Source of the DNA: Rhizoclosmatium globosum
Taxonomy: Eukaryota; Chytridiomycota; Chytridiomycetes; Chytridiales; Chytriomycetaceae
Assembly (NCBI GenBank): GCA_002104985.1
Contig: MCGO01000026.1
Coordinates: 124,001 to 188,000 of the forward strand
Reading direction: 5' to 3'
DNA length: 64,000 nucleotides
Part shown: positions 1,699-55,951 of the stretch, one piece after another
Position numbering within the stretch: the first letter of the stretch is position 1
How the letters are laid out: each line of letters opens with the position of its first letter
Notes under the pieces: generated by a model
Database searches by the model: none
What the model was told of the DNA's origin: nothing
Seen by the model: the letters and a program-made list of their open reading frames with translations, nothing else
Translations under genes and position numbers: made by a program

Positions 1699-4600
1699 AT
1701 GAGTGACGATCCCACCTCCGATCAGCCTACTTCATCCAACCCATTAAACGATCAAGGTGTCAATAACAACATCATTCCACTTGTCAATGCCACAACATCA
1801 AGCCCACCAACAGCAACTCCAGCTCCAAACTTCAACTCCACGTTTCTCTCACCAAAAGTACATCGCAAAAAGCTAGAATCAACTCCTCGTAATTCCCCCG
1901 ATTCTCCAGCCGCGTCTTCTTCCTTCGTCATGATTCCTGCCCTTAGTAGCTCACCTGCAAACACTGGGTCATCAGATATGTCTCGCTATGGTGCAACAGC
2001 AAATTCACAAGGTTTCAGCACGAATAGTCTCGAAAGAAATCGCGATTATGTTGTATCTCCTTCTCCATCCAGCCTCCTCCTTTCACCGCACCGAACTCCG
2101 GGGCGAGGCTTTTTGCAAGGTTTACCGGATTCGGTTCCTTCAAAAGAGAGAGATTCAATGACACGGTCGAATAGTTTTCGTTCCAACATTGTTCCAGGTA
2201 AGAATTCTGCAAGAATTCTTCTGTAAAGTGAGGATGAGTGGGAATGGTGGGAAGCTAAATCAGGACTTGGAATAATTTTATTAAACATGACTAACTTCGC
2301 TCTGTTTTTTAGGATGGAGGCGCAGCAATCAGGCTTCTCCAAGAACATCCCCTCTTACAGCATTTCAACCCGAAGGACAAGCACAAAACGCAGAACAACA
2401 GCATGGTCTTGATTCGCCAAAAGCGATACATGTACCGAGATCTTCCCCATTTGTTGAACCAATTGCCTTCAAAGAGCCAACAACATTTGCAGCAAAGCGT
2501 GCAGCGTCAATGGCGAAACAAAAAACCGCCGCCGATCTACCGCGCCATCTGCAGGGCCTCCGTCGCTCCAGCGTACAAGCGTCTACTTCTCCCGAAGAAA
2601 TCGCACCCGCAAAACTCCTCTCCCAACCTTCCTTCTCAAAAATTATATTTTCTGCCTTCTCAGCATCTCGATCAACTTCAGTCTCAGAACCCCCTAAACC
2701 AAAAAAACGCCACAGTTCAAGTTCAGACCAACAGACCACATACATTGAGCCCCAGCAATCCTTTGGATCAAGAGGATCCTCCAGTGCCGCCCAGAAACGA
2801 GCTAGCCTGAAACCCCAGGATCCTATTCTCGAAGACGACCCAATGTCACCACCACCACCACCAATTCCATCTTCACCCACTTCATCATCAAGACGGTCCA
2901 GCTTCTCCGTTCCCTTGAAAGCACCCATGATTGTAGAATCCACGTTATCCCCACCCCCATTGGCCCGTGCACCAGCCTCCAAGTCGGCTCATTCGAATGT
3001 TTTGTTTCTCGATGACGGTCGTGGAAGTGATTCGTTGCGAAAATACAAAGGAGTGACGGGGACTAGAAGTGGAGGGGGAATGGAAAGGGACTCGCGTATG
3101 CCGCCACTGGACAGAGTTATGTGAGTCTACGGAAGAGTCAGACTGCGAGTCAGCATTTTGAGGAGAAGGAGATAAATGTTGGGCTGAAGGTGAGAGAGCG
3201 TTTTGTGTTTTGAGTACGGGGGGATTGAGTATCTTATAAATTTGATAGTACCATCCAATCATTCTGTGGATGATGGAACGGCAAGCATCGATACTTCAAT
3301 CGATTTGGTTTAAGCGCATCGTTGATTTCCTCGCATCAGACAAGACCTGTATATTCATTTGGTTCGGAATCGTGCTCTTCATGCATACCGTCATCACCAC
3401 CATATTCATCATTTCCGTATGGTTGATTATCCCTGGAATCTGGGTATACAACCTCGCCCAACTATTCGTCGTCTCCTCCACCGTGATCGCCCACCTCGCC
3501 TCCAAAAAACTCTCCAGCATCATCCAACGATCCATCACATCCTCAGATTTAATGCGCGGCCGCATCACAATCCCCGAAATCGCCGACTACTGGGTCCACG
3601 GACCTCTCAGCCCAGCATACAAAGTCATCCGCACAGGTGCAATCATCGAACTCATTTCCGACGCTATCGTCATCATCAGCAGTATCAGTTTCAGCTGGGC
3701 CGACGTACAAACCAAGCTGATTACAGGGGTCTGTCAACCACCGTTATACATCAACGCGTCGTTGCCACCGGGAATCGATGTCCCGCAATACGTGCAAGGC
3801 GACGTTGATTATGCGGAGGTGTATAACTACGGGCTTCCGCTAGCAGATGGGTTGATTGGGGGCTGGCCTGGGTGGCCCAACAGTAACCCAAAAGACGATT
3901 TCTGGATGTTTGGTGAAGGACCTGTGTACATTATCCAACTTCTCTGCGACAATGGAACTCCGAGGCCGGATCTGTCGACGGACCTTGGTATTGCGACGCA
4001 TGTTAGTTCTCGGTTGCTTGAGAAGAATTCGAGGAGTATTATGCTTGAGACGGATATCTTGTTCCCGGCTGGGAGTGTGTATGACGATGTGAGGAAGACA
4101 CTGCATAATACGACTGTATTACAGACTTGTTCAAGTCTGATTACTGTTAGTTATGGAACTATTGCGTACGAGTTTCATAGTGATCAGTGGAATATGGTGA
4201 CGAATGGACAACATCGGAACATTCGGTCTCAGGACGCTGGCTTTTATGCAGAGTATCCAAGTAGTATTTATCAGTATAGCAAGGATGCCTATAATCTGTT
4301 TGAAAAGTTTCCCGACAAGTATGGAGTGCTTCCACTGTTTTCTGAGACTGTCAAGATTGTCTTTCAAAACAATTCATATTACCCAAGCCAAGGGGCTGTA
4401 TTCTGCAATTTGCTGAGCGAAGGAACATACCCGGACGGATACTATCACACAGCCGCAACCTACCGAGGCATGGCCACGGGAATCGGAGTCGCCGCCCACT
4501 TTGCAATGATGCAATACACAGCCGGCATCACAACCCCCTGCGAATACATGGGCTACACCGGCTCCGGCCAACTCAAAGTCCCTCAACTCGCAATCTTCCT

Positions 4601-10366: not shown

Positions 10367-13300
10367 CTAGTCCGTATTCAACATCAACGCTACTCCTTGT
10401 AGCACCCAATGACTAATGTGACTACCTGTACTCAAGTCTGCATCAAACACCCATCCAATGCCGGAAGCGTTTCTTCGAAGTTGAGTGGTATATACTGGAG
10501 TTCTGAACGTATTTACAAGTTTGAGTCTGTGGGCTTCAATTGGAATGATTCTCAGAATTGGAAGTTCTTGAATCAACCTTCCACCATTTTCCAATCTCAC
10601 AATTGTTTGCTTCTTTATATCCCATCCTGCACCCTCGAGGTATAATCCTTGAACGTAACATCCACTTGGTGCACGTTCGGTAATTTCTTTTGGATCCGTG
10701 AACTGCGTGACTTGAGTGTACAAAGTTGAGCGATCGAGAGGCCACCCATTCTTACGACAAGTCGTTTGAACCAAAGCGGTGATATAGGCTTCTGGGACAT
10801 GTAATCCGGACAACCAAATGACGATGGGTTCTCCATTCTTTATCCATGTAGTGTACTGATTTAATCGACGTTCAAAGTGCTGCATCCAACCTCCAAGTCC
10901 TTTTTCTGTTTGTGGTGCCAAAGATCTCCACATAGGAGGCAAAGAACCATTGAATAACGCGTTCGCAAGCTCATCCAACTTGACAGACATTCCAATTTCT
11001 CCTTTCAACGCCCTTTGCAAATCTTTCAATGAACTCTTCATACGCTCTACAAGATTGTTCCATCGTTCCAGCTCTTGCAACAAAACAACCTGGGTGGGAG
11101 ATGGTGTGCTTCCAATGGCTTTGTAGATTTTAGGAATATCAAATGTTCCAGGAAGTTTGGTTTGAATGTCTGTGGCAATACCAGCAATAAAGTCTTCACG
11201 ACTGATACCTCCACTTCCTTCCGCCGTTCTAGGTTGTAGGGAAATCAACTGACCCCACATATCCTTTACAGCAGTCGTCAAATAACCAATTTCCGCATCT
11301 GGGTGCAGTCCAAACACGTCCGGAGCGTTCGTCAGTGGAAGTGTGTCGATATATGCGATGTATTCATCTTTCGTACCATTTAGCAGTACTTTGTACTCAA
11401 CTTGCGGTGATTGGAAGAAGAAGAATGGTTGGAACGTATCGAATAAGAAGTCTCCCAAGTATTCGTCCAAATAAGTCATTAAGACTCGTCGATCATAGTC
11501 ATCTGTTACACGGCCGCCATAAATAGTTTCTCCTACCAAATACCTCAGGGTAGTCCATGGAATTTTTCCATCAGGTGTTGTTGCCGTTTTGTTCAAGTAG
11601 GTTCTCAAAATTGTCAAACTGACACGGAAATCAGACTCATTGAAGTCATACTTTACGTTCCAACCGATTTTACCGTACTTTCCACGTTCTTGCTGTACTG
11701 CATGGAAGAATGCTAAAACATACACGAGCGGTTTAAAGGCTTCATGCATGCAATCTTGTAATGCCTCATCTGTAATTTTAAAGTAACTACTACGAATGTT
11801 TAACTTCAGACCATTTGGTGGCTCTGTTACAACTTTGAGCGACCGTTGTAGGATTCCAATGGGAAATTGTGGGGTTGGCTCTGTAGTTAACCACAGGCGG
11901 AAATCGCGGTGCGGCCTTTCAATTTTCTCCAATACTTTTTCCAAGTGACGGAGCCATTCCACTAGCAAGTGACAATTTTGAAGCATTAGCCATTGTCCTC
12001 TAGCTACAGCAGTTTCAAGGAGCTGTAAGGCGATTGGTGCTTGACCTTGCCCAAGAGACAAAAACTTGAGTCTGTTTCCTCCAAAACCAAGAGTTTCAGC
12101 AAGTTTTTGCAAATCGCTTTGAGGATCGGCTCCAGGACTTAGAATAAACACCACTGGACCAGTTGGTGATGATTGTTCGAAAATATTTTGGTAGTTGACA
12201 ACAGGGGGCATGACAAACTTTTCTCCCATATGCTTGATGACAAAGTGAGTTACACTGTTGTAAACGCGATCTGTTCTGAAGCAACGAAGCAAGCAAAGTT
12301 GCTGGAAGGAATTCAATTTTTCCGAGTAGCCCATCGGCATAGCTTCTGTTTCCGGTGCTTCAAGTCTTGCCCACGTTTTCCAGACTGTCTCGTTCTCTGT
12401 TACTTCTGTCGCTATGTTTGAAAACACAGGATTAATGGTGGTCAACTTAAGCAAGTCTTTCCAGCCTTGGTCCAGCAACCATGTGTATGGTTTTGCTTGT
12501 GCCACTTGATCCAAAGAAATATCACCCTTCAAAAAGAAGTTGAATTCAGATAAGTCAATTAATCCATCAACTTCCAATAACTTGATTGTCATTTGGAATG
12601 AGAACATGAGCTTGTGCTTTTCAAACAGACCAGTACAAGAGTAGTTATAAACGGCATATTTCAGCGTATCCGATATTTTTACCAACCGCTTACTGAGAAC
12701 CGGATCAGGCTTACTCTTGTGAAGCGATGCCACGAATACTTCGAGGAAGGCACCAAGACTGTACTCGTACATAGGATTGATGGTTGACAATTCAGCCATC
12801 ACGAAAAAGAGCACGGCTCCGATTTTGGCTACAGGTCTATATGCGTCACGAGATATTTCGACTTCTGCAGATGTGTGGTTTGCCAGAGCAATCTTTTGTG
12901 CGATTTCTGTTGCTTTGGATTTGGTTTCTTCCAACGTTCGAATAAGGTCAACGTTGTCAAGCATAGAACCGGTGGAAGCAGCAAGTTCACGAAGCAAAGT
13001 ATCTTCTAGATCTTTCAGTAAACTTTTGTTTGCACTCATTTCTGAAATAAGTTGTTGTCTTTGCTCTTCTAGCTCGTGCCTTTCGTGCCCCACTACTACG
13101 TTCAGTAATTGATCACTTAATCCCTTAAACGTTACACTGTAGTTGATAATCATAGCAGATCCAAACACCTTCGGTGTATATGTTGGATTCGCCAATCGAG
13201 AAGTGAGGTATAATCTGAAGTTTGGATCGAAGTCAACTTCCTTGTCCCCAAGAACAATAAAGCGACGGGCTCCGGCCGATTTGATGTTCTTTTCAAGCAA

Positions 13301-50505: not shown

Positions 50506-51133
50506 ATGTATGAAGCACCAACATTATGCATTGAATGTCAATCTCCTACAGTTTCTTACTATTCTTGGAACACGACCCGTCCTGAGTCCTTGGCCGTTGC
50601 GTTTGGATCAGGCAGAATAAACGCGTTCACTGTAAGAATACCTTGAATCTTCCTCTTCCTTCTAAATATTAATACATTTACTCAAAAAAAAGTCATACAC
50701 ATACTATCCAAACCGGAATTGGCCAGGCTTTACAACGTTTATTCACTACGACGCGTACACGATTGCAATCTGTGCCGAGAAGGCCGCATACCATCAAGCA
50801 AACTTTTATTCTTTCCATCCTCCTTCGTTCACATGTTACATACAATCCCCAAAACCTACACTGGCCATCCATCCAGTGCAGACGCTTATTCCTGGACCAA
50901 AAGGCATTGAATTCAAGGGTTATAATCGTATAATGAATCGCGATTTTAAAGACGCATTTGATTTGTACAAGGGAATGTGGGTGTCGTCGGAGGCAGCTTG
51001 TGCACGTGCATGTTGGGAGGATGTGGATTGCGTTGCTTCTTCGTTCCTCTATCGAGGTTGTTATTTCAAGGCGCCAATGGCGCAAGCAGGAATGATTGCA
51101 GGAACCATATTCCGAATCACCCAACAGTCTTAA
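50506..51133 (+). CDS. Cysteine-rich PAN/apple-like protein, 5' end uncertain
   Basis: Exons 50506-50631 and 50693-51133 give at least 188 aa. Two similar modules are visible. The first ends AICAEKAAYHQANFYSFHPP with a CYIQSP strand. The second is ACARACWEDVDCVASSFLY then CYFKAP. The alternation of a Cys-containing helix with a C-x-YF strand is typical of PAN/apple (or WSC-like) domains of extracellular proteins that bind carbohydrate or protein. No signal peptide is found. The open frame extends upstream of the ATG to about 50376, almost to the RPC9 stop, so a first exon with a signal peptide may be missing, or the gene is 5'-truncated. It sits directly upstream of the Fanzor-like gene. Confidence 0.55.
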
Positions 51134-51668
51134 AAAAATAGAAAGAAAGGAAATAGGAAAAAACTTCAATTAAACAAAGATTTCCTCTCAAATAAAAAAA
51201 GAACTCCTGCAGAATTGGCAAAAAGTAAAGTTCCTCAAATACATCAAAAAAATTTTTGTGTTCATGGGTGTGAAAACCCTCAAAATTCTTAAGAAACTTT
51301 GCAAGTGAGTTCATCCCCTCATCCCCTTCGTCCCTGCTCCCTTCCACATCTGTGAGGTGTTGATAGTGGTCCACGTTCATTATAAGTGCTCTATCTACTT
51401 TGTACTATGTGCGATCATTCCGCAGACACTTTCTCGATGATCTGGTCCTTCAAGGCCCAGACCACTAACCCCACTCAACCTATCGCACCCTTCTCGCCTT
51501 TCCCCTCTTTCTTTTGTTTCCTTCTTCCTACTATCAAATGCCTTGTTTCTTCTTCTCGTGGCTGTCTTTATGACTCTCATGTTGGATTGTCTGTGAAGGA
51601 GGATGGAAATCTCCACAGAGGTTACCTCTTCTCTTACTTCTTCTTCTTCTTCATGTCATTGATACTAG
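51134..51668. other. Region upstream of the Fanzor-like gene; 5' exons unresolved
   Basis: 535 bp. The left part (51134-51260) is very A-rich and looks like a 3' UTR. From about 51404 a long open frame runs rightward (MCDHSADTFS ...) with a pyrimidine-rich centre. Part of it may be the first exon of the Fanzor-like gene: a donor at 51621 joins in phase to acceptors at 51668 or near 51676. I could not decide which. No terminal inverted repeat was recognised. Confidence 0.35.
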
Positions 51669-54600
51669 TTCCTTTGAAGCCATTGTCAAGTTCTATCTAT
51701 CTGTTATCGTACCAAATGGATCAATCGTTATGGTTCTTGTCTCCAACAATTCCACTGTTCTTGAAGCAAAGCAGGCTGCAACTTTGGCTGTTGGTCTCTC
51801 TGTTGATGGTTTCCAACTCTATCGACCTGGCCGGCACTGGAAGCGATTGCCCTCATCTCGATCACTCTATGGTAAGTTTTTATTGTGTTCACTCGTATTT
51901 GTTGTTGCTTATTCAAGCTCATAGATCTTGGTCTGAATCCCAGTACCCTCGTGCAGCTTGGACAACGTCCACAGCCACATAGCCGATCCGCCATTCCAAT
52001 CACTACTCCATCTATCAGTATGCCATGAATTTGCCTGCCTATCAAGTGGACAACGAAATCGATGATACTATACAGTCGCAGAATAATATTGAGCGTTACA
52101 GGTATCCTGCAATCATCATTTGTCATCAAGCCTGTGAAAGAAATTGATGTTGAAATACCTGTTGGAATTGGAGTTGGCGGAGGTGTTGGAGTTCAAATGG
52201 AAGAGGGAGTGGATGAAGAAGACGAAGCCCCAGAGGACAACTCCCAGCTAACACTTGCTCAACTACGAACCTCGTTCAAGACCTCTATTCTCCAATATAT
52301 CCAGCCTGTTCAGTGGGGCTTGTGTCTGGAAACTGGAACACGACTAGTATCTTCAACACCATATGTCAGCATCACACATTTATGCCGAGATGATCTTGTA
52401 AACTTGTTCACTGATATATTTAAGCTGAGCAAGAGCAAGTATTTGTTGTTTGGGAATGAAGGATTCTTGGAAAACAAGGTTGGTGAACAGCTCAACAACA
52501 CAGGTGTTGTGCAGGCTGCATTCAAAGGTGCTATTGCCAGATACAAGACATGGACTACAACTGGCTTGAAATTTGGTAATCTTTTTTCCTTTCTTTGACA
52601 TCGTCTCTTTCATTCTGCTTTCCTAACCCAACACATTCAACCAGGAAAATCATTCCATGAACAGTTCAGCCACTCAAATTGTCGATATCTCTCAGTTGAT
52701 GGTCACACCATATTTCCCAGACTTCCTGACTCTCAAGTTCGTGGGATGCAGTCTGCTGTCTTTGATCAGAACAAACAAACAGCTTTACACATTGAAGGCT
52801 ATTTCCTTGATTCTTGTGATGAACCCGCCAGAGACATTCCATGGCCGCCTAATTTCCCTTCTGTCAATTTGCATTACCTGAACTTGATGCGTCTGGCTTT
52901 AGAAAAAGGAGGTCCACTCTGTCAGAGGCTTGTTGTTCATCCACTGGGATTCAAGATATTTGCGAGTGCAAGGAATGTCATCCATCTCTGTCTGACAAAG
53001 AGCTCAACAATCAACTTCCTGACTTCCAAGAATAAATTTGTGACGTATAGGCCAGGTGCAATCAGCATTACGTATGACAGGGAAACTGGAGTCTTCAAAT
53101 CAATGCTGCCGCTTCAAACTCACCACATGTACACCCGTGAATTATTACTTATTATGAAACAATATTCATACAACGACGCCCCTCGACGCTATCCAACAAC
53201 AACACCCCCAGTCAACCGCAATTCCATTGATGTCAGCTTTAATCAAGTCCAAGAGTTATTGTCTAATTCTTTCAAAGAGATGGCTGAGACTCGAAAATAC
53301 TATGCTGCAAATCCATCAAACCCGAAGGCACGTGAGGAATATCGGCATGCATCTCACTTGGTTCAGTACCTCCGAAATCGAATTCAGAAAGAATGTTCTG
53401 CAAAGCACCGTCGCAAACTGGAAGATGCCATGATTGTGTATGCCCGTCAGCACAACTTTGGTTTGTTTCGTTACAACTCTGTCAAATTGGGCGCAGTTCA
53501 TGCTGAAGATACGGAACTATTCAAGTCTCGGATGGGATCCTTCCATAGTCCCGACGTGTGGATCACCAATCCTACCAAAGCGGTCCAATCTGCGTTTCGA
53601 AATGCTTTTGGAACATCTCGTTTATTGTTGAGCAGTGATCCAGGTGGAAGAACAGTGGAAACGCAGATGGCGAGTACTGGTCATGTTGTTCAGATTGGAG
53701 TTGGATTTGAAGCAGTAATTTGTCGTCTTCAGAAACGCATCAGCAAACTTCAATCGTTTCGAGATAGGGCCATTGATTGACTTGGGGCTGTGGTGGAGTT
53801 AAGGAGCCTAATCGCTGCTGCTGAATTGGATCTTGTTGAATATGCCGCGGGTGATGCAGTTGTAGCAAAAGAAACATTGCGACTGGAAAATCTTGTACTT
53901 GCAGCGGAACAGGAGTTGGAGGCTAGGTTGAAGGAGCTTCGTGCGTCAGCAAGAATGGTTCGTAAACCAACTCCTGGCCCAGATGACATGAATGTGGTGG
54001 ATGAAGAAAATGATGTTCTGGATGAAGTGGGGAGAGTGGATAAGGAGTTGAAAAAGATGCGAAATGAATTCAATGTCACCTTTGTCTGAGGTGGTAACAG
54101 AGGTGGTGGAGATGACACCAACTTTTTGTCACGCCTGCTCAAGAACGCGCAAGAGGACTTGAACAAGTACGCTCGGAGAGTTTGCCAATCTGCCGCGGAA
54201 TGGAATTCTGGTGCAGACTCATACGCTACATCTGACTTCAACTCCAAAACTACAAACAAGAAAGTGACTTCTGGGAAGGATGGTATTCCAAGTGAGTTTG
54301 ATTGATTACTTAATTTTGAATCTAACCACCTACCTCTGTCTTAGAATGGGTCAAGACTGTCCTCTCATATGCGGCCCATGCTTCCATCAGGAAACAAACC
54401 ACAGTAATGGCGTACAAAAAGTCGGAAAATGACGGCGCGTTCTTTAATCCTGGTGGACCTGCCTGGAATATATCCAAAATGAAGAAAGTCATGGCGAAAG
54501 AATTTGATCCCCAGTTTCCTCTTGTTGGTAGAGTTGGAAAGATCAAGGCTGTAATCATAGTGACTGAGGTACCTGTCTTATGGTTTTTGTTTATTTAATC

Positions 54601-54994
54601 TGTTCATTAGATTGGATCAACAATCATGTGCTTTTGCGGTCGCATCTCACGCATCGGGAAGGCCAAGACGTTCAAATGCTCCAACCCACGTTGCAGTGGT
54701 CGTGCAATATGTTCACGTGATAGTCTCACCTTCCGTCTCCCACGTGACGTCAAGAGTGGCCTGTTTATTGAAAATCTAACATGGGCAATTGCATTGATGC
54801 GGGTTCATCACCACATTCGAGGTGGTGGTACAGGAGGTGCTGAAAGCAATCCTGGAAACGGTGATCCAGGTGGTGGAGGACCGGGAGGAGGGGCTGGAGG
54901 TGGGAGTCTGTCAGCGAGTGGACTACAATCCACATGCTTTCCTATCTTGCACTTGGCCTCCCGTGGAGCTGCTGGACACGTTAGCGACGTATAG
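51669..54994 (+). pseudogene. Fanzor-like (eukaryotic TnpB) RuvC nuclease with N-terminal ubiquitin-like domain; two in-frame TGA codons
   Basis: Fanzors are RNA-guided DNA endonucleases related to IS200/IS605 TnpB (family knowledge; one from the chytrid Spizellomyces is active). Exons 51669-51871, 51925-52017, 52102-52575, 52645-54291, 54345-54568 and 54611-54994 join in phase, about 1,000 codons. Residues about 1-75 read as a ubiquitin-like fold (STVLEAKQAATLAVGLSVDG, KRLPSSRSLYDLGL, STLVQLGQR). After an acidic linker comes a long N-terminal region, then RuvC-I (LLLSSDPGGRTVETQ), RuvC-II (VIIVTEIGS), a zinc-ribbon-like CFCG/CSNPRC and RuvC-III (PRDVKSGLFIEN or CSRDS). TGA codons at 53778-53780 and 54087-54089 lie in the same frame, between RuvC-I and RuvC-II. 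Each is one C-to-T change from CGA. A Gly-rich segment precedes the end. 5' start unresolved. Probably a recently disabled copy, or an early-terminating product. Confidence 0.72.
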
Positions 54995-55110
54995 CTGATG
55001 TAAGTTTTATGATTCTCAAGGCACGTACTAACCGAGCTCAAAAAGAAAATACACGTTTATTTCCCTACTTTGAGTCGCTTAAAGAACAATTTAATGAAGT
55101 TCCCTCATCC

Positions 55111-55951
55111 TTACGCAACAGTAGTGATCATCTTGGAATTCAACTCCTTCACTTCCGTGTTCAATTCATCAAAAGACTCCTTGTATTCTCCCGCAGCTTC
55201 CTTGTTCTTCAATGACGAAGGTGTCACAACCATTACACATGAAGTTGGTCTCTTGGTGTTGGATGCGGCTCCCAAATCCTGCTTGGATGGGGCATAGATG
55301 TATGGAACTGAGTTTTCCTCGCACAATACTGGAAGGTGGGTGATGACGTCGATGGGGGAAATGTCTCCGGCGAGGACAACGATTCTGTGATGTGAATGAG
55401 TGAATGAGCAACCAAGAACTGAAGAAAAAAGCTGTGCAAGAAAAGGGAAGAAATGCATTGAGAAAGCTGATGGATGCACGATATTTGCTGCTGTGCGATG
55501 CATTTGGTAGAATGAAAGTTGGTCGAGTCCTGAGTGTATCCAAAAGCGCTTCAAAACAAGAGTATCGCCCATTCCCAATCACAAGCAACCCCGGTTGAAC
55601 CAATGCATACACATCAAAGCGTTCCATTCCCCTTGTTCTACTCCAAGAAAGCAACAAAACAACACCTCAAAGCCAGAGAGCAACTCACCCTTTCGATCCC
55701 TTTCTCAAAGCCTTGATCACCTCCTTCACGCCCCGCTTAACACCCTTTGCCTTTGAAGCCTTCTTGATGGCCTTGTAGACCTTCTTGGTCAGTTTCTTTG
55801 AAGCGAGAGGGTGGGCAATGGCAGAGACTGATTGGCAACGTTGCTCGTATGATGGTCCTTCCTCCTGTTCAGCGGCGGCGGCGGCAGCAGATCCTTCCTC
55901 ATCGTGCTTCTTCTCCTTCTTCTCCTTCTTTTCTTTCTTCTCGGATCCCAT
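55111..55951 (-). CDS. NHP2: H/ACA snoRNP protein NHP2 (L7Ae family)
   Basis: Core protein of nucleolar H/ACA particles that pseudouridylate rRNA. Exons 55951-55689 and 55384-55111 give 178 aa. The N-terminus is Lys/Glu-rich (EKKEKKEKKEKK) with an Ala run. The L7Ae core follows: HPLASKKLTKKVYKAIKKA, RGVKEVIKALRKGSKGIVVL (RNA-binding), AGDISPIDVITHLPVLCEE, YIYAPSKQDLGAASNTKRP. The single intron is 304 nt, about five times the local norm. The gene converges on the Fanzor-like gene, 116 bp away. Confidence 0.95.

Follow-up and report, generated by a model that had tools for sequence, protein, structure and literature searches.

Fanzors have so far been studied mainly as compact RNA-guided nucleases. 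Ubiquitin-like sequence placed before an enzyme is a feature of the Crinkler-type proteins, in which a ubiquitin-like header region precedes the enzymatic part, and which occur in fungi as well and have suspected links to transposons. Fanzor1 and Fanzor2 are found in eukaryotic transposons and large DNA viruses (PMC3627910, PMC10711439). The Fanzor motif of Bao and Jurka 2013 spans 125–275 residues from its D to the [TS][TS] pair (PMC3627910), and a DPG together with a glutamate six residues before the finger are features distinctive of Fanzors according to Yoon et al. 2023 (PMC10711439). In addition, PpFz1 carries a small insertion in RuvC, the FRI domain, that binds cyclophilin, and thus provides an earlier example of a Fanzor whose accessory domain engages a host protein (PMC11423790).

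The locus described here lies in the window, a 64,000-nucleotide stretch of the Rhizoclosmatium globosum genome that was analysed as a whole. It is probably a decayed and internally deleted copy of a ~12-kb repeated element. At full length, this element is predicted to encode a single giant protein, at least 3,500 residues long, that carries ubiquitin-like sequence close to its N-terminus and ends in a likely RuvC nuclease of the Fanzor type. In common with Fanzor1 and Fanzor2, the nuclease has the DPG and, six residues ahead of the finger, the glutamate; [TS][TS] precedes the finger and RD follows it, and the nuclease is carried by a repeated element. Unlike them, it makes up the C-terminus of a predicted giant protein (3,500 residues or more), ubiquitin-like domains (UBL1 and UBL2) lie upstream of it, its D to [TS][TS] distance is 295 residues, and it matches no profile. 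While the FRI domain of PpFz1 sits within RuvC, the putative accessory domains of this element are N-terminal and ubiquitin-like. UBL2 resembles ubiquitin and the ubiquitin-fusion precursors (Pfam PF00240) in its full-length alignment and in a GG followed by more protein, but it is only 51% identical between the two subfamilies of the element, so that about half of it has diverged, and an LPGG occurs in one of them. The element differs from the Crinkler-type proteins in size and in its C-terminal enzyme, and Pfam scans of the UBL-bearing proteins (P0005–P0009 and 12 UBL1 rows) gave no Crinkler family model. Neither a UBL–Fanzor nor a ubiquitin-fusion transposon polyprotein was found in the searched literature, chiefly open-access papers. 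The wider architecture, a giant multidomain Fanzor-type element with ubiquitin-like domains, appears to be new.

The window copy and its deletions

The first-pass annotation had read this locus as a ubiquitin-like domain joined directly to a Fanzor-type nuclease through two introns. The ubiquitin-like frame is present at about 51687–51988, followed by nuclease-like frames that run on to 54994, and the first intron is borne out as well: it is a GT-AG intron of 53 bp in the window, and an intron of 47 or 53 bp is spliced at this position in 17 of the 20 UBL1 loci, the window included, while two loci show no splice and one has no frame. The supposed second intron (52018–52101) lies within the relic of an exon that is coding in other copies. 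This relic reads SIYQYAMNLPAYQVDNEIDDTIQSQNNIERYRYPAI and matches the exon immediately 5' of the nuclease, and the segment claimed as an intron is open coding sequence in all nine other copies aligned, which represent both subfamilies. The 29 codons that correspond to it evolve rapidly between the subfamilies (dN/dS 0.82–0.88), so their coding status is indicated by the open frame and the position and not by constraint. Taking out the supposed second intron masked a frame broken by a 77-bp deletion.

Comparison with other copies reveals how much of the element is missing (Table 1). Relative to copy E1, ~0.8 kb of the coding region that precedes UBL1 at the 5' end has gone before 51687, and relative to copy E9, ~8.0 kb has gone between 51988 and 52007, including UBL2 and the zinc-finger-like and middle regions. 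Furthermore, the loss of 77 bp at 52118 shifts the frame, and ~0.17–0.19 kb has disappeared from the last exon near 54907, together with the basic KPPPAKKQR of other copies. Two in-frame TGA codons (53778–53780 and 54087–54089) interrupt the nuclease region; all 19 other long copies lack them. The first M of the UBL1 frame, at 51730, is already within the domain, and no in-frame ATG precedes the ubiquitin-like sequence in this copy. The deposited model of the window copy (P0001) starts 3' of the ubiquitin-like sequence and stops at the first TGA. Read against the other copies, these deletions and the two stops make the direct UBL–nuclease join a deletion scar.

That the window holds a working two-intron UBL–Fanzor fusion gene is thus next to negligible as an explanation. 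Its first intron and its ubiquitin-like frame are real, but the gene is not intact, given the two stops, the 77-bp frameshift and the missing start codon; its second intron is coding elsewhere, the deposited model omits the ubiquitin-like part, and the two parts are adjacent in no other long copy. What survives of the proposed fusion is that both pieces are genuine and share one predicted frame in copy F1, whereas their direct contact results from the loss of ~8.0 kb.

Table 1. Features of the element copy in the window (positions counted from the first nucleotide of the window)
Feature	Positions	Strand	Evidence
5' leader segment of element copy	51250..51653	+	87% identity to L028; parts match L025, L029, L030, L032
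Deletion junction 1	51654..51686	+	51627 and 51687 are 865 bp apart in E1
UBL1 exon, first part	51687..51871	+	20 UBL1 loci genome-wide; weak ubiquitin-fold matches
Intron 1, GT-AG, 53 bp, position conserved	51872..51924	+	17/20 loci; deposited models P0006, P0007
UBL1 last part and linker start	51925..51988	+	E9 alignment up to 51988
Deletion junction 2	51989..52006	+	51988 and 52007 are 8,028 bp apart in E9
Relic of coding exon preceding nuclease; encloses claimed intron 52018-52101	52007..52118	+	87–94% identity to 12 other copies
Deletion junction 3, 77 bp gone, frameshift	52116..52118	+	Comparison with other copies
Nuclease-region exon: acidic linker and nuclease start	52119..52575	+	Deposited model P0001 begins in same frame
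Nuclease-region intron, GT-AG	52576..52644	+	Same place in E9 and E1
Nuclease exon with RuvC-I DPG (53637-53645) and two TGA	52645..54291	+	Sequence, motif alignment
Nuclease-region intron, GT-AG	54292..54344	+	Same place in E9 and E1
Nuclease exon, last codon = relocated glutamate (GAG 54566-54568)	54345..54568	+	Motif alignment
Nuclease-region intron, GT-AG	54569..54610	+	Same place in E9
Last exon: zinc-finger string, RD, Gly-rich tail, stop	54611..54997	+	Sequence and copy comparison
Conserved 3' terminus of element, possible guide-RNA region	54905..55010	+	35 genome matches; flanks diverge beyond

As to its surroundings, the element in the window is flanked (51133–51300 and 55010–55100) by the ends of two convergent open frames, and copy E1 lies closely 3' of an open-frame end and next to a 54-bp piece of another 3' end. 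An insertion preference for gene ends is possible.

Element copies and the predicted giant protein

The copy search covered the 57-Mb genome (G000), which includes the window locus, and found at least 20 long copies of the nuclease body, the window among them. By DNA identity, the 19 others fall into 12 at 91–92% and seven at 75–77%; the element comes in two subfamilies, which are ~74% identical in DNA and have the same exon order. UBL1 was located at 20 loci. Among the 19 other long copies, 16 have it on the strand of the nuclease and 8,207–8,518 bp upstream, with small exons strung out between the two, and three lack it within 12 kb of the nuclease (in one of these the contig ends); three UBL1 loci are listed without a long nuclease copy. 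The two parts do recur together in independent copies, as a true fusion had been expected to do, but at a distance of 8.2–8.5 kb, and they adjoin in the window copy alone (0/19 others). UBL2 was detected ~1 kb downstream of at least eight of the 20 UBL1 loci in a genome search with the Pfam ubiquitin model, three of the matches being above the cut-off and five just below it. Across 959 reference codons of the nuclease region, neither a stop nor a frameshift-size indel is present in any of the 19 other copies, a count that includes the reference L013 itself, with 33, 87 and 150 codons absent in L011, L019 and L020, respectively. These alignments demonstrate a repeated element in which a conserved chain of coding exons leads from the ubiquitin-like sequence to the nuclease.

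The chain bears marks of purifying selection. Between subfamilies, the nuclease region has a dN of 0.163 and a dS of 0.802 (dN/dS 0.20 over 955 codons), a value taken from a separate subfamily comparison and not from that of F1 with E9. In the latter, dN/dS is 0.25 for UBL1, 0.29 for UBL2, 0.50 for the linker between them, 0.30 for the acidic region, 0.21 for the finger region and 0.11–0.21 for three middle segments; this comparison is valid as far as domain C, because the frame of E9 changes beyond it, and everything from domain D onward was dropped. One pair within a subfamily, L014 and L018, gives 0.61 on very few changes.

Four full-length copies were read from contiguous genomic stretches, namely E1 (C190), E9 (C63), F1 (C334) and F9 (C413). 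All of them, from two subfamilies, present a single-strand chain of exons with short predicted introns at the same positions, and parts of this splice pattern agree with the deposited models P0002, P0004, P0006 and P0007. Starting at UBL1, F1 stays open for 3,538 codons across 17 predicted introns, down to where the nuclease ends. In its numbering UBL1 occupies residues 1–75 and UBL2 346–421, two zinc-finger-type cysteine pairs begin at ~1162 and ~1232, and the DPG at 3054 is followed by the zinc-finger string from ~3350 and the basic KPPPAKKQR at 3466. There is a further open stretch upstream of UBL1, where L038 has an open frame of 232 codons. A frame break in the fifth exon is accounted for by a 47-bp intron that this exon holds and that is also spliced in P0006.

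One giant protein from UBL1 to the nuclease is predicted, in line with the open frame of F1. The other three copies read (E1, E9 and F9) each have a stop or a frame change upstream of the nuclease: E1 a frame change within the exon preceding it, E9 a TGA in a middle exon past the finger region and then a frame change further on, and F9 a frame change in the middle. These breaks suggest that the upstream region is perhaps under less constraint, or that the protein is split. In the latter case, a UBL1–UBL2 protein and a nuclease would come from at least two distinct genes lying on one strand, and a giant protein would not exist. The deposited gene models of the element, which are separate fragments, and the breaks between UBL2 and the nuclease in three of the four copies speak for such an arrangement; F1, on the other hand, is open throughout over its 17 introns, intron positions are equal in both subfamilies, and in E1, E9, F1 and F9 no stop separates the nuclease from the exon preceding it. 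We regard separate genes as unlikely and favour the single predicted protein. The first-pass annotation would have given up the fusion if the ubiquitin-like part and the nuclease were always separate genes in homologues, and F1 holds both in one predicted frame.

At the start of the protein, a charged stretch of helical character is conserved before UBL1 in L038 and other loci of the series L035–L054 (HRRHKSWAKRSLKAVEKELKLAQLVELL and related sequences), and hydrophobic segments are likewise present upstream of UBL1 in L035–L054; this 5' region is gone from the window copy.

A Pfam scan, which included the middle exons of E9, found no transposase in the element. Terminal repeats were sought by exact matching and not found: inverted exact matches between the element ends did not exceed 6–7 bp in three copies, with shuffled sequences scoring as well; the 5' ends are not sharply mapped and target duplications were judged by eye.

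Relatives are confined to the genus in the searches performed. P0003, P0005 and P0009 come from R. hyalinum and P0004 from Rhizoclosmatium sp. JEL0117; three protein searches gave 4, 5 and 4 proteins, from Rhizoclosmatium only, the second of them scoring the 7,995 candidates with most shared words, and no relative turned up when viral contigs were scanned with the nuclease alignment. Across 484 aligned columns, F1 (L061 and L016) and P0003 of R. hyalinum show a single residue difference and a single gap of nine residues, a near-identity that could reflect very recent movement, interspecies transfer or mislabelled isolates. A 5'-half copy (L025 and L034, C360:185851-198500) is split by ~5.7 kb that does not match E1, after which more element pieces follow; its 3' end may lie at C360:199645.

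Identity of the nuclease and of the ubiquitin-like domains

The nuclease carries the string SSDPGG...VTE-IGSTIM-CFCG...CSNPRC...RD. The RuvC-I DPG is present in all 20 rows, the window included, and the glutamate lies six residues ahead of the first cysteine (VTE-IGSTIM-C) in 19/19 rows with data, its position in the E1 subfamily depending on an intron position taken from E9. Four cysteines with the spacing C-x-C and C-x4-C form the putative finger in 18/18 rows with data, again including the window, and past it the second RD is found in 18/18 rows and the first in 15/18. The motif string, in a form that was loosened so that this family would fit, was matched by 0/20,000 shuffles. In E9, the distance of 295 residues from D to [TS][TS] is outside the range of Bao and Jurka.

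Pfam, NCBIfam and solved-structure libraries returned nothing or chance-level matches for the nuclease, Pfam PF07282 (OrfB_Zn_ribbon/TNB type) matched neither P0002 nor the spliced nuclease segment, and an AlphaFold model of P0002 built from four sequences was discarded at a mean pLDDT of 37.6. The segment with the glutamate and the finger aligns over 34 columns with another repeated family of this genome, L060, at an hhalign E of 0.00088 with a probability of only 23%, and L060 itself matches the Pfam TNB domain below the cut-off. Since the Fanzor motifs are present, yet no profile matches and one spacing is exceeded, the C-terminal part is termed Fanzor-type, likely to be RNA-guided, and not a proven member. 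The original label is hence upheld by the motif (the DPG and the relocated glutamate) but is matched by no profile search. Another zinc-finger or RNase H-like protein could carry the same string of residues without being a Fanzor, a reading that fits the blank searches of Pfam, NCBIfam and solved structures, the D to [TS][TS] distance of 295 against a published maximum of 275 and the finger spacing, but that we hold to be improbable in view of the invariant DPG and six-residue glutamate–finger spacing, the shuffles of the loosened string and the 34-column match to a repeated family with a weak TNB match.

Other Fanzor-like sequences occur in the genome. L060-like families on C334, C201, C223, C399 and C410 have frames of 385–415 aa with a weak Cas12f1-like TNB match, and the glutamate–finger string is common to them and this nuclease. 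A second Fanzor-like family (L055–L059, e.g. C63:48880-48936) has an open frame of 737–741 aa ending in CHHCGTMWDRDRNAARNI; one such locus lies ~1.7 kb from the nuclease of E9, and the R. hyalinum model P0009 appears to join an end of this type to the start of the UBL element. L055 and the nuclease gave no match.

The first ubiquitin-like domain had been called a canonical ubiquitin fold, which is too strong. Among solved structures, ISG15 is the best match of UBL1 at an E of 0.074, with an antibody chain at 0.11, and in Pfam 12 members gave E-values of 0.0052 at best, with RBD matched in nine (best E 0.0052) and ubiquitin in four (best E 0.01), which falls short of a family match to ubiquitin. 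RBD is also of the ubiquitin-type fold. UBL1 is nonetheless a probable ubiquitin-like domain. That its likeness to this fold is due to chance, with UBL2 as the only such domain of the element, is quite conceivable, though we lean the other way: the E-values are modest, antibody chains score almost as high and a comparison of the UBL1 and UBL2 profiles gives no match, whereas ISG15, UBX, DSK2, RBD and ubiquitin are all among the top matches and its dN/dS of 0.25 speaks for constraint.

UBL2 is established as a ubiquitin-like domain at the sequence level. In E9 it matches Pfam ubiquitin at an E of 1.2e-5 and, with 25.5 bits, narrowly passes the cut-off of 25.4, while in P0006 and P0007 it scores 22.7 and 22.6 bits, under that cut-off. 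A profile of four UBL2 sequences finds solved single ubiquitins from an E of 1.8e-10, aligned over the length of UBL2. In E1, E9, F1 and F9 the domain ends in GG (RGG or PGG), followed by AD. An AlphaFold model of P0006, which spans UBL1 and UBL2, was discarded (five sequences, mean pLDDT 30.7).

The 3' end and a possible link to the ubiquitin system

The last ~100 bases of the element match 35 sites in the genome. In 20 aligned ends the flanks diverge at, or a few bases past, GCTGATGTAAGT, and some copies have up to ~24 further bases in common beyond it. The synonymous difference between E9 and E1 is 0.00–0.26 in the last ~140 codons and 0.20–0.81 in the body, where it also dips to about 0.20 around RuvC-I (E9 11420–11659). 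Low synonymous divergence at the 3' end fits a candidate guide RNA read into the flank, and gene conversion is an alternative explanation. Folding and covariation are weak, with z-scores of −0.84, 0.22, −3.08 and −1.74 for the 3' end and one compensatory pair of 47, and Rfam gave no match in positions 51200–55200 of the window.

A working model can be outlined for the full-length element. Some enzyme would move it, and its C-terminal nuclease would cut DNA with a guide RNA that starts in the conserved 3' end and extends into the flank, which may help the element to persist or spread. UBL2, with its GG followed by AD, may be recognised by the ubiquitin system of the host. In the simplest form, a host deubiquitinase would cut the polyprotein at the GG of UBL2 and thereby free the nuclease part; alternatively, UBL2 could serve as a handle to the ubiquitin system. 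We tentatively propose, as a possible and still somewhat doubtful reading, a new class of transposable elements that produce an RNA-guided Fanzor-type nuclease as the C-terminal portion of a giant ubiquitin-fusion polyprotein. Two ubiquitin-like domains would lie in tandem near the N-terminus, and host deubiquitinases would cut at the di-glycine that ends the second, so that the element would use the ubiquitin system of the host to mature, dose or localise its nuclease.

To conclude, this case shows that the direct fusion, striking as it looks in raw sequence, is an artefact of decay. If the proposed link is real, it would be a first sign of a eukaryotic RNA-guided nuclease wired into the ubiquitin system, and a family under purifying selection would offer a testable handle on what Fanzors do for the elements that carry them.
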